From Gemmatimonadota bacterium (lineage in GTDB: Bacteria; Gemmatimonadota; Gemmatimonadetes; Gemmatimonadales; Gemmatimonadaceae), in contig JAPLKS010000021.1 of the NCBI GenBank assembly GCA_026387915.1, forward strand, positions 1-64,000: a DNA stretch of 64,000 nucleotides, written 5' to 3'. Both the position numbers and the translations under genes were made by a program. This document shows positions 18,399-21,267 of this stretch, piece by piece (positions within the stretch are counted from its first letter, which is position 1; every line of letters begins with the position of its first letter). The notes below the pieces were generated by a model. It saw only the letters and a program-made list of their open reading frames with translations. It was not told where the DNA came from and did not search any database.

Positions 18399-20840
18399 TT
18401 AGTGCTGCTCTCCGTGAGACGCGGCGTTGGCATTCTTCTTGGGCGCCGCGAGATACTTGGCGTACCAATCGAGCATACGCTGATGATAATCCATGAAGTC
18501 GCTTTCGGTGGTGTTTGGCACGCCGTGTCCACCGTTGGCGTAGTTCGCCCACGTCACGGTTTTTCCAAGGCGCCGTAACGCGTAGTACATCTCGCGCGTG
18601 TTGATGGCGGGCACGTTGTGGTCTTCGCCGCCGGTCATCAAGAGGAGCGGCGTCTTGATGCGATCGGCAAACATGATGGCGGAGTGCTGCACATACTTCT
18701 GCGGCTGCTGCCACATGGTGGCGCCAATGCGGTCTTGGCTTTTTTCGGCGGCGTGAATGTTGCGCACGCCGAGCCGTGGGCTGTCGGTGTAGAACGAAAT
18801 GAAGTCGACCTTGCCGCTCATGTTGATGGCCGCTTTGAAGCGGTCGGTTTGCGTGACGAGCAGGTTGGTGGCGTAGCCACCGTAGCTCGTGCCCTGCACG
18901 CCCATGCGCGAGCTGTCGGCGACGCCCATGCGAATCACTTCGTTGGCGGCGGCGGTGACGCCCTTCACCCAGGCTTCGCCCGGGTAGCCGATTTCAAAAC
19001 CCACCGACGGCTTGACCACGGCGTAGCCGTGCGAGGCGAGGATGTTGGCAAAGGCGTCCCACGCGTCGTCAAAGAAATCTTCGTACACGAGCATGATGGT
19101 CGGATACTTCTTGCCTTTCTCGTACTCGGTGGGGTAATGCAACACGCCGTAGCGCGTTTTTCCGTCGGCGTCGAGGTAGTGAATGAGTTCTGTTTTGGCG
19201 ATAGGCTTTGCGGCGAGCTGCGGATTGCTCTCGAGCACGCGCCGCATGTTGCCAAGGGTGGCGTCGGCGACGTAGACGTCGGCAATGTGATTGCCGTCGC
19301 CAACATTCAGGATGGCGGTGGCGCCGTCTTTGGAAAGACGAAGATTGGTGTAGAACTTGTTGCCGTGCACAAGCGATTGCTTCTGCTTCGTTGTGCGGTC
19401 GTAACGCACGAGCGAGCGATTCCACTCGGTGCGCGCATTTTCGGCAAAGTACAAATAGCGGCCGTCGTTGCTCCACGCCACAAGCGTGGGGCGCGGCGTG
19501 TTGGCGTCGGACGAGTCGGGCGTGGTGACAATGAGTTCTTTGTTGCCGCTGGCGGCATCAACAATCCAAAAGCCTTCGCTGTTGGTGGCGAGCAGCGCGT
19601 CGCCGGCGGGGCTCCAGCGATTCACGCTAAAGCGTTCTTTGGCGCGGAGGGCGCGGGCGGCGGCGCTGGTGTCGGGAGCGCTGGGTGCCGGTGCGCCACT
19701 CGTGGCCGCTGGTGATGCGGCGCTGTTACCACCGGCTCGGCTCACTGTGGCGGGGCCGAGTATTTGTTTGGTGGCGGTGTCGGTAATGGAGCCAATAGCA
19801 ATGCGGCCGTCGCGGGTGATAGCAAAGCGTTGACCGTCGTCGGCCCAAGCGAGTTGTGCGCCTTTGAGGGAGGCGAGAATGGTGCGTTCGTTTTTCACGG
19901 GGCGCGAGGCGATGGAGTTCGTGCTAGTGGGCGCGTCGCCTGCAAAAGTGCGCGCGACGAGTTTCCAATCGCGGCCGCCGATAATGTCGTAATCGGTTTT
20001 CTTGGTAATGTCTTGCTGCGTAGTGATGGCGCTGCCGTCTTTGGCGAGGGTCCAGGCGCCGAGCAGTGCGTCGGCGTGGAGTTGTGTGACGGTATTGGCG
20101 GCGACGTGCCACTGGACGATGGACCGATCTTCGTTGAGTCGGTTCATGGCGTCCCACTCAAGAAAATCTTCGGTGCCGTCAAGAACGGTGACCGGGCCCT
20201 TGGTGAGTTCGTTGAAGCGCTGCGTGGCTTTGGCTTTCCAGCCGACTTGGCGCGCGGCAAAAACAAGAGCGGCGCCGTCGTCGCTCCAACGGAGCTCACT
20301 GTTTTCGGCGACGTAGTGCGTGGCGGGGAGTTTGGCGCTGCTGAGTTTGCCACTCGCACGATCCCACACGGTCACCGTCTGTGCGTCATTCTCGAGCACA
20401 ATCATCGCGAGCTTGGAGCCGTCGGGGTTCCAGGTGGCGCCGCGTACCGATTTCTTGGTGGGGAAGACAGCGCGTTGTGCGAGGGATTTTGTGTCGACCA
20501 CAATCAAGCGCGTGAGGATGGCGCGGAGGTAGCTGGGATCACCGTCGCGTGCGGCTTCGGCCCCGAGTTGGTCGCGACGGGTGGTGATGGTGAGGGCGAG
20601 CCAGCGGCCGGCGGCGGAGAGATCGGCGACGGTGGTGGTGGCGATGTCGAGGAGGTCGCGGATGCCGAGGGAGTCGGCGCGGGCCGAGGCGGGGCGCGCG
20701 GTGGCGTGACTCGTGAGCCTCGTGGTGCTCGTGGTGCTCGTGGTGCTCGCGGGCGCAGTGAGCGTCCGTGTTGATTGTGCCGGGAGCTGCACGGCAGCGG
20801 CGATCAGGGCAAGCAGGGCAACGGAACGTGAGCGCCACAT
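18399..20840 (-). CDS. S9 family peptidase
   Basis: 813 residues with a signal peptide (MWRSRSVALLALIAAAVQLP, AQ) followed by a Thr/Ser-rich stretch encoded by 9-bp repeats near 20721-20748. A beta-propeller with ATWNPDGSKL and SWAD-type motifs follows, with an Ala/Pro/Ser-rich insert in its last third. The C-terminal hydrolase domain has S652 in GTSYGGYA, Asp in TGGEDHNVP and His in NGGHGVP. It acts outside the cytoplasm on oligopeptides. GAGG lies 6 nt before the ATG at 20840; the frame stays open upstream but lacks a leader there. It is followed directly by the lipoprotein amidohydrolase. Confidence 0.91.
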   Translation of the reverse strand: MWRSRSVALLALIAAAVQLPAQSTRTLTAPASTTSTTSTTRLTSHATARPASARADSLGIRDLLDIATTTVADLSAAGRWLALTITTRRDQLGAEAARDGDPSYLRAILTRLIVVDTKSLAQRAVFPTKKSVRGATWNPDGSKLAMIVLENDAQTVTVWDRASGKLSSAKLPATHYVAENSELRWSDDGAALVFAARQVGWKAKATQRFNELTKGPVTVLDGTEDFLEWDAMNRLNEDRSIVQWHVAANTVTQLHADALLGAWTLAKDGSAITTQQDITKKTDYDIIGGRDWKLVARTFAGDAPTSTNSIASRPVKNERTILASLKGAQLAWADDGQRFAITRDGRIAIGSITDTATKQILGPATVSRAGGNSAASPAATSGAPAPSAPDTSAAARALRAKERFSVNRWSPAGDALLATNSEGFWIVDAASGNKELIVTTPDSSDANTPRPTLVAWSNDGRYLYFAENARTEWNRSLVRYDRTTKQKQSLVHGNKFYTNLRLSKDGATAILNVGDGNHIADVYVADATLGNMRRVLESNPQLAAKPIAKTELIHYLDADGKTRYGVLHYPTEYEKGKKYPTIMLVYEDFFDDAWDAFANILASHGYAVVKPSVGFEIGYPGEAWVKGVTAAANEVIRMGVADSSRMGVQGTSYGGYATNLLVTQTDRFKAAINMSGKVDFISFYTDSPRLGVRNIHAAEKSQDRIGATMWQQPQKYVQHSAIMFADRIKTPLLLMTGGEDHNVPAINTREMYYALRRLGKTVTWANYANGGHGVPNTTESDFMDYHQRMLDWYAKYLAAPKKNANAASHGEQH

Positions 20841-20930
20841 AAGAACCTCAGCGGGTGTGTTGTCACTGCTAAAGGTGCTTGGATGTGGGAGGTGGGCGCC
20901 AGAGTGGGTGTGGGCTAGGACGGTGTGAGG

Positions 20931-20970
20931 GAAAAGAAAGCGGGGCCGCGCCACCTGGCGCGAGCCCCGC
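20931..20970 (-). terminator. Rho-independent terminator downstream of the tRNA
   Basis: On the minus strand GCGGGGC-T-CGCGCC pairs with GGCGCG-GCCCCGC (one bulge, 4-nt loop), followed by TTTCTTTTC. It lies 74 nt past the tRNA 3' end and would end its transcript. Confidence 0.8.
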
Positions 20971-20975
20971 TGACT

Positions 20976-20989
20976 GGCAGACTGCGAAT
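20976..20989 (-). other. 14-nt antisense of the tRNA anticodon arm in its trailer
   Basis: The plus strand reads GGCAGACTGCGAAT, the same 14 nt that the tRNA carries on the minus strand at 21101-21088 (anticodon stem, loop and anticodon). In the minus-strand transcript this segment is therefore the perfect complement of the anticodon arm and lies between the tRNA 3' end and its terminator. Confidence 0.85.
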
Positions 20990-21043
20990 CGGAGGTGAAT
21001 TTAGGGATTCCGTTCTGCATCCGCAACAACGAACACTCGCCCG

Positions 21044-21127
21044 TGCTCGAACCGGGATTCGAACCCGGACGACCTTTCGGTCAGCAAATTCGCAGTCTGC
21101 CGCGTCTACCGTTTTCGCCACTCGAGC
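21044..21127 (-). tRNA. Class II tRNA, Leu-type body with anticodon GCG
   Basis: An 84-nt cloverleaf on the minus strand. Acceptor stem GCTCGAG/TTCGAGC has one G-U; a 3-bp Leu-type D stem (GCG/CGC) has GGTAGA in its loop; anticodon stem GCAGA/TTTGC has one G-U; a long variable arm GACC-GAAA-GGTC follows; the T arm is a perfect CCGGG-TTCGAAT-CCCGG; the discriminator is A; CCA is not encoded. All of this matches bacterial tRNA-Leu, but the anticodon loop is CTGCGAA, so positions 34-36 are GCG (plus-strand 21091-21093), which would read CGC/CGU arginine codons. Bacteria normally read those with tRNA-Arg(ACG). It could be a real chimera, a missense suppressor or a pseudo-tRNA. A GATCACC-GA-GGTGATC palindrome lies 3 nt before the 5' end. 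Confidence 0.8.
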
Positions 21128-21267
21128 CGGGATCACCGAGGTGATCGACGCGTACGCTGCGACATACGCGCTGCGAGTATTCCCATCAGCATACGGCCAG
21201 CGCCGCGGCGGCCTGACATCGGAGAGCCGCAAGCCGGCGCGAACTATTGCTAGCGTTTTGGTTCGTA

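Follow-up and report, generated by a model that had tools for sequence, protein, structure and literature searches.

A 64,000-nucleotide stretch of DNA from a Gemmatimonadota genome (hereafter 'the window', meaning the whole stretch analysed) carries on its minus strand a tRNA gene that is followed by a perfect copy, in reverse complement, of part of its own anticodon arm. Upstream of the tRNA lie a putative promoter and two hairpins, and downstream the antisense segment is placed between a second putative promoter and an intrinsic terminator (Table 1).

Table 1. Features of the locus, listed in the order in which they are met on the minus strand.
Feature	Position	Strand	Description or basis
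Putative tRNA promoter	21188-21220	-	GATGTC (21220-21215), 21 nt, TATGCT (21193-21188)
Leader hairpin	21150-21169	-	8-bp stem; loop TCGCAG (21162-21157) complementary to own anticodon loop CTGCGA
tRNA-proximal hairpin	21131-21146	-	GATCACCTCGGTGATC; just 5′ of the tRNA; seen in the sequence
Chimeric tRNA, proposed toxin	21044-21127	-	Leucine-type class II body with A73; GCG anticodon (reads CGC, Arg); CCA not encoded
Stretch of the anticodon arm with a perfect match to the antisense	21088-21101	-	Sequence comparison
Putative antisense-RNA promoter	20998-21026	-	TTGCGG (21026-21021), 17 nt, TAAATT (21003-20998); shuffle p 0.04
Predicted antisense small RNA, proposed antitoxin	20932-20990	-	About 59 nt; promoter and terminator prediction
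Antisense to the anticodon arm	20976-20990	-	14 Watson-Crick pairs at 20989-20976 and a G-U pair at 20990; covariation in relatives
Intrinsic terminator of the small RNA	20932-20970	-	Terminator prediction

The tRNA is recognized by both ARAGORN and Rfam (21043/21044 to 21127; 51.8 bits with RF00005), and ARAGORN labels it tRNA-Arg(gcg) on account of its anticodon. The body is leucine-like, with a long variable arm, a leucine D-arm and A73, and the nearest tRNAs within the same genome are Leu(TAA), Leu(CAA) and Leu(TAG). The acceptor stem has 7 bp and the T stem 5 bp. Thus, the class II body, A73 and D-arm expected of a tRNA-Leu are present and only the anticodon is foreign, whereas the class I, Arg-type body expected of a tRNA-Arg is lacking. 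The genome yields 48 tRNA hits that make up a normal set, including five Leu isoacceptors and Arg(ACG, CCG, CCT, TCT), and all four of these arginine tRNAs belong to class I. Judged by its sequence, the tRNA in the window is an extra one that joins a leucine-type body to an arginine anticodon and stands beside the normal set. A first-pass annotation of the same DNA had drawn attention to a tRNA with an odd GCG anticodon; the anticodon is as described, and the correction needed is that its bearer is leucine-type and no ordinary tRNA-Arg.

On the minus strand, positions 20989-20976 (ATTCGCAGTCTGCC) match tRNA bases 21101-21088 (GGCAGACTGCGAAT) as their reverse complement without a mismatch over 14 nt, and a G-U pair at 20990 extends the 14 Watson-Crick pairs to 15. 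Lying 53 nt downstream of the tRNA, the segment is complementary to the anticodon loop with its GCG anticodon and to the strand of the stem that lies 5′ of this loop. The first-pass annotation had reported this 14-nt complementarity and the inclusion of the unusual anticodon in it, and both observations are borne out. The antisense score of 14 for the window tRNA is far above the scores of 56 ordinary tRNAs (mean 7.16, sd 1.26, maximum 10.5) and of swapped pairs of tRNA and trailer (mean 7.8, sd 1.4). Hybrid energy alone is a poor discriminator: when structure is ignored, the target reaches −31.7 kcal/mol and the runner-up among 47 tRNAs of this genome −27.0 kcal/mol.

Given the arrangement of the flanking signals, the antisense is probably part of a small RNA in its own right that starts near position 20990, rather than (or rather than only) of a trailer of the tRNA. 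A sigma70-like promoter of the form TTGNNN-16/18-NANNNT precedes the antisense in all 33 loci examined, with a shuffle p of at most 0.05 in 30 of them, and when the regions before the antisense are scored by spacer length the peak falls at 17 (z 16.4). The distance from the end of the −10 box to the centre of the anti-anticodon is 8-14 nt in 28 of the 33 loci, and therefore the antisense should begin at about +1. Because most relatives share this predicted position, a trans-acting small RNA is likelier than a processing trailer. The promoter in the window itself is modest (p 0.04), and a strict-consensus scan found 0 promoters there. A terminator downstream of the antisense, which the first-pass annotation had also noted, is present in the window, and across the family a strict scan for a stem plus T-run is positive in 22 of 35 loci and fails in 13. 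Both products of the locus would thus be non-coding RNAs from adjacent genes, one a tRNA model hit and the other a predicted small RNA. A mechanically called ORF at 18399-21029 (prolyl oligopeptidase-like) overlaps the small RNA and its terminator, but translation of this ORF probably begins at the ATG at 20840.

The spacer of the putative tRNA promoter exceeds the sigma70 standard by approximately 3 bp. A family motif, GRTGAC-N21-TANNNT, occurs 60-80 nt upstream in many of 38 chimeric tRNAs, with z 12.6 at spacer 21, a value that includes the roughly half of the loci from which the motif was drawn by eye; in 19 held-out loci z is 3.6, the best of 13 spacers. Unbiased scoring with TTGACA/TATAAT places the peak upstream of the chimeric tRNAs at spacer 20 (z 5.3) and upstream of ordinary tRNAs at 17 (z 4.6), and a standard promoter on the tRNA side reaches p of at most 0.05 in only 2 of 38 loci. 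The long spacer suggests a promoter that is weak or activator-dependent, and thus conditional expression of the tRNA.

The palindrome that the first-pass annotation had placed at 21146-21131, against the 5′ end of the tRNA, is there, and in relatives a hairpin of different sequence (judged by eye) occupies the same site. A second, more telling hairpin lies further upstream in the leader, where the loop is complementary to the anticodon loop. In relatives this leader loop follows the anticodon loop, being TCACAG for CTGTGA and TCGCGG for CCGCGA (L103, L376). The complement was detected automatically in 13 of 15 loci with GCG or GTG anticodons and by eye in the other two (L101 and L103), and locus L376, found later, has the anticodon loop CCGCGAA and the predicted leader loop TCGCGG. 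When hairpins are ignored, complementarity of the leader separates own pairs (20 of 36) little from swapped pairs (271 of 1090); when it is confined to hairpins with a stem of at least 7, the counts are 16 of 29 and 62 of 670. This second complement holds mainly for the GCG/GTG subfamily; elsewhere the leader differs and support is weak.

The arrangement recurs. Such loci were found by a BLAST search in 99 relatives and by two patterns (leucine-type D-arm, non-leucine anticodon) run over 395 genomes of the phylum. Altogether, 37 chimeric tRNAs are followed on the same strand by the antisense of their own arm; they come from 30 genomes, of which nearly all are Gemmatimonadota. The first pattern gave 29 matches and the second 5, and reversed control patterns gave 0 in both cases. 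Included in the 37 are two further members of the genus (L359, L365) and two late finds (L367, L376); the latter two, found after the hypothesis was formed, both carry a matching antisense, as judged by eye, and enter no statistic. The ten anticodons of the family are all non-leucine (GCG, CGC, GTG, GTC, GGC, CAC, CGG, GGT, GCC and GAC) and stand for Arg, His, Val, Asp, Ala, Pro, Gly and Thr, with GCG the commonest (11 of 35). A73 is kept in all 25 well-formed members. Some genomes hold several modules (G001 and G002 have three each), neighbouring genes are mostly unrelated between loci, and presence is patchy: within the genus of the window, at least 9 of 18 genomes have an intact module, a lower bound given that the patterns miss variants, and 2 more have a remnant.

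Five loci matched by the patterns (L091, L092, L094, L108 and L148) have no fitting antisense and were left out beforehand from the covariation tallies (35 loci) and promoter tallies (33 loci), the former set being the latter plus L359 and L365; identical tRNAs were counted once (L096 equals L095). L092 has a broken acceptor stem and has lost its antisense. L091 (G254:C110) is a chimeric Gly(GCC) tRNA whose antisense mismatches the anticodon while the small RNA downstream fits a GTC-type loop, and represents either an unfinished switch or a pair in decay. L094 (G155:C17), perhaps phage-derived, is a leucine-like tRNA with a TGG anticodon; a hairpin resembling a terminator lies upstream of it, and an antisense is absent.

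According to the first-pass annotation, related genomes should reveal whether the anticodon arm and its complement change together, and they do. Positions 34, 35 and 36 are each paired in 35 of 35 loci, and at position 35 all four Watson-Crick pairs occur. Over the whole arm, 519 of 595 cells are paired, compared with a mean of 315.6 (sd 14.0, maximum 372) when the antisense segments are reassigned among loci. An ungapped score of at least 10 is reached by 29 of 38 own pairs and by 4 of 1228 swapped pairs with different anticodons. With gapped scoring, 33 of 38 own pairs exceed the 99th percentile of swapped pairs, and this brings in the GTG group, whose antisense spans the anticodon loop and variable arm. 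None of 56 ordinary tRNAs reaches the antisense threshold. Where two loci have homologous neighbours, differences in the arm are matched in the antisense in 5 of 5 cases for L089/L090, 5 of 6 for L077/L078, 3 of 6 for L087/L088 and 2 of 3 for L086/L103; compensation is weaker in other pairs, such as L085/L101 (1 of 4). On these comparisons, we judge that the match is no accident and that the module is strongly supported.

The codons that these tRNAs would read are mostly among the most frequent. In the 23 long ORFs of the window, on which the codon count rests, the commonest codons are GGC, GCG, GCC, CGC, GTG, CTC (Leu), GAC, ACC and CCG, and the ten family anticodons read all eight of the non-leucine codons in this list plus CAC (rank 23) and GTC (rank 28). 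Ten drawn uniformly from 53 would take in all eight with a chance of approximately 5e-8, a figure to be read with the GC-rich genomes in mind, since these could partly explain the choice of frequent codons. A harmful tRNA would be expected to look like this, unlike a helper for rare codons; that candidate was rejected because the codons read are mostly the commonest. Decay in the genus of the window has a direction as well. In remnant L044 (G007:C129), whose flanks are 95-98% identical, the tRNA lacks its 5′ part along with the anticodon arm while promoter, antisense and terminator are kept, and in remnant L038 (G017:C841) the tRNA is cut on both sides while antisense and terminator are kept. 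Thus, the tRNA was lost before the antisense in both remnants.

With a probability of roughly 0.6, we interpret the locus as a two-gene RNA module that acts like a toxin-antitoxin pair, consisting of a miscoding tRNA and its antisense antidote. The first gene would supply a tRNA with a leucine-type body in which the original anticodon has given way to one for a very frequent foreign codon, here CGC (Arg). Recognition of tRNA by LeuRS is generally independent of the anticodon, and charging with leucine is therefore expected, which would place leucine at CGC codons throughout the proteome. On anticodon independence, PMC11415595 places LeuRS, 'to a lesser extent', alongside AlaRS and SerRS. The second gene, directly downstream on the same strand, would use its own housekeeping-type promoter and terminator to make an RNA of about 60 nt, the 5′ end of which would pair with the anticodon arm and mask the anticodon. 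We infer that both genes are transcribed, that the charged tRNA is toxic and that the small RNA neutralizes it in trans, such that the tRNA would stay silent as long as the small RNA is made. If the supply stopped, through transcription shut-off, loss of the locus or phage takeover as the presumed trigger, the stable tRNA would outlive the small RNA and mistranslate.

The main rival to a toxin-antitoxin pair differs from it in purpose more than in mechanism: mistranslation would be useful and regulated, with the tRNA broadening proteome diversity under stress, the small RNA turning it on and off, and no addiction or defence toxin involved. The anatomy would be identical, the unusually long spacer of the tRNA promoter suggests conditional expression, and bacterial hybrid-identity tRNAs of unknown use exist, such as Streptomyces tRNA-ProX (PMC11415595, in the part consulted). 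Patchy presence, multiple copies in single genomes, mostly unrelated neighbours, loss of the tRNA before the antisense and the preference for the commonest codons nevertheless fit a toxin better, and we consider useful mistranslation unlikely but by no means far-fetched. The reading originally proposed, in which a single transcript carries a trailer that pairs back on the anticodon arm and slows or prevents maturation until it is cut off, is in part sustained. No terminator was seen between tRNA and antisense, and the minimum free energy structure predicted for the 196-nt read-through transcript pairs the trailer with the anticodon arm (−98.3 kcal/mol, z −5.6). As the main mechanism it is rather improbable, given that in most relatives the antisense sits at the predicted +1 of a promoter of its own and that all 33 loci have a promoter at a constant spacing ahead of the antisense, for which a trailer has no need. 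Folding in cis may act in addition, as read-through would place the antisense in cis too.

Should the tRNA instead be a decoy or sponge, a bait for an anticodon nuclease or another tRNA-binding factor whose availability the antisense controls, the anticodon arm would indeed be expected to be the variable, controlled part, as it is. GCG, the commonest anticodon, is without a native counterpart in the genome that carries it, however, and so the decoy would be bait for nothing; the anticodons also track codon frequency, the acceptor stems are intact and A73 is kept, all of which renders a decoy very improbable. Anticodon arms of tRNAs are frequent integration targets, and for this reason a relic at the DNA level was considered, either an inverted duplication or the attachment-site scar of an element integrated at the tRNA gene. 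Such a scar is contradicted by the compensatory changes on both sides, and its recurrence in dozens of loci, mostly among unrelated neighbours and with terminators and a constant promoter spacing, leaves this origin hardly credible. We give equally little credence to a plain tRNA-Arg gene with a chance match: ARAGORN does name a tRNA-Arg(gcg), but the leucine-type class II body, with Leu tRNAs as its nearest relatives in the genome, the presence of a normal tRNA-Arg set and the repeated, covarying match contradict it.

As a putative toxin-antitoxin pair, the module was compared with two known classes. In type I systems an antisense RNA is directed against the mRNA of the toxin. The module resembles these in having a small antisense RNA with its own promoter beside the toxin gene, and differs in that the target is a complete tRNA (RF00005, 51.8 bits) rather than the mRNA of a toxic peptide; type I was rejected on the lack of a small-peptide toxin. 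With type VIII systems, such as CreTA, the module shares that both partners are RNAs from linked genes and that the toxin (here the proposed one) acts on translation. According to the part of PMC8501985 used here, CreT toxins sequester rare tRNAs and CreA RNA guides Cascade to repress creT, whereas in the window the antitoxin would pair directly with the anticodon arm and the proposed toxin is a tRNA itself, aimed at common codons. Identity with CreTA (creA with CRISPR-repeat remnants plus type I Cascade) is unlikely because the antisense pairing is direct.

Two groups of hybrid tRNAs were also compared. Streptomyces tRNA-ProX and its like carry an anticodon that does not belong to the amino acid of their tRNA body and are predicted to mistranslate (PMC11415595). 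Their bodies are proline-type with Ala, Asn or Thr anticodons, an antisense partner is not mentioned in the portion of that paper considered, and the leucine-type body in the window excludes this identity. The allo-tRNAs (Mukai 2017, as cited in the consulted section of the review PMC7609411) have serine-type bodies and very diverse anticodons, GCG and GUC being among the commonest. They differ in their 12-bp acceptor branch (8/4 or 9/3), their Ser identity and their hosts (Acidobacteria, Clostridia and Proteobacteria), and this identity was rejected for the window tRNA with its 7-bp acceptor stem, 5-bp T stem and A73. As far as we have compared them, type VIII systems, tRNA-ProX and allo-tRNAs each share one side of the module and none has the pair.

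To our knowledge, no tRNA is accompanied by an antisense RNA dedicated to its own anticodon arm, and none was found in a literature search of openly licensed PMC papers. We lean slightly towards a new class of toxin-antitoxin system, defined by a miscoding-tRNA toxin and an anticodon-arm antisense antitoxin. It would offer up to two anticodon complements (the leader hairpin in cis and the small RNA in trans), a strong antidote promoter and a conditional, long-spacer tRNA promoter, and arms that diverge as pairs such that several modules coexist without cross-talk. If so, cells possess tRNAs with the capacity to recode the codons they use most, and silence these tRNAs by base pairing; tRNA would join the list of toxins, with the genetic code itself as the weapon, and a function would be suggested for at least some hybrid-identity tRNAs. 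The module would also represent a ready-made programmable switch for sense-codon reassignment.

Outside the phylum, an antisense accompanies 1 of 43 well-formed odd-anticodon tRNAs with a leucine D-arm among the matches listed from other phyla and viruses, a lower bound on its spread. This locus, L183, lies on a 4.4-kb contig labelled Zixiibacteriota (JAUVRN010000236.1) and is the only antisense-bearing chimera outside labelled Gemmatimonadota among those matches; it could reflect horizontal transfer or a misbinned contig. Viral contigs scanned with tRNA-plus-antisense patterns for GCG, CGC and GTC gave 0 matches, and the odd Leu-like tRNAs of viral contigs among the matches listed lack an antisense, and a phage-borne module was rejected on these grounds. 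Serine-type bodies with odd anticodons occur in 1 of 250 genomes of the order, the example (L366, G029:C14:60807-60838) being a tRNA with anticodon GAT (Ile), a terminator directly after it and no antisense seen. In Azospirillum cavernae (L112, NZ_QYUL01000003.1), two adjoining tRNAs combine a leucine-like D-arm with anticodon TGC (Ala) and an encoded CCA.
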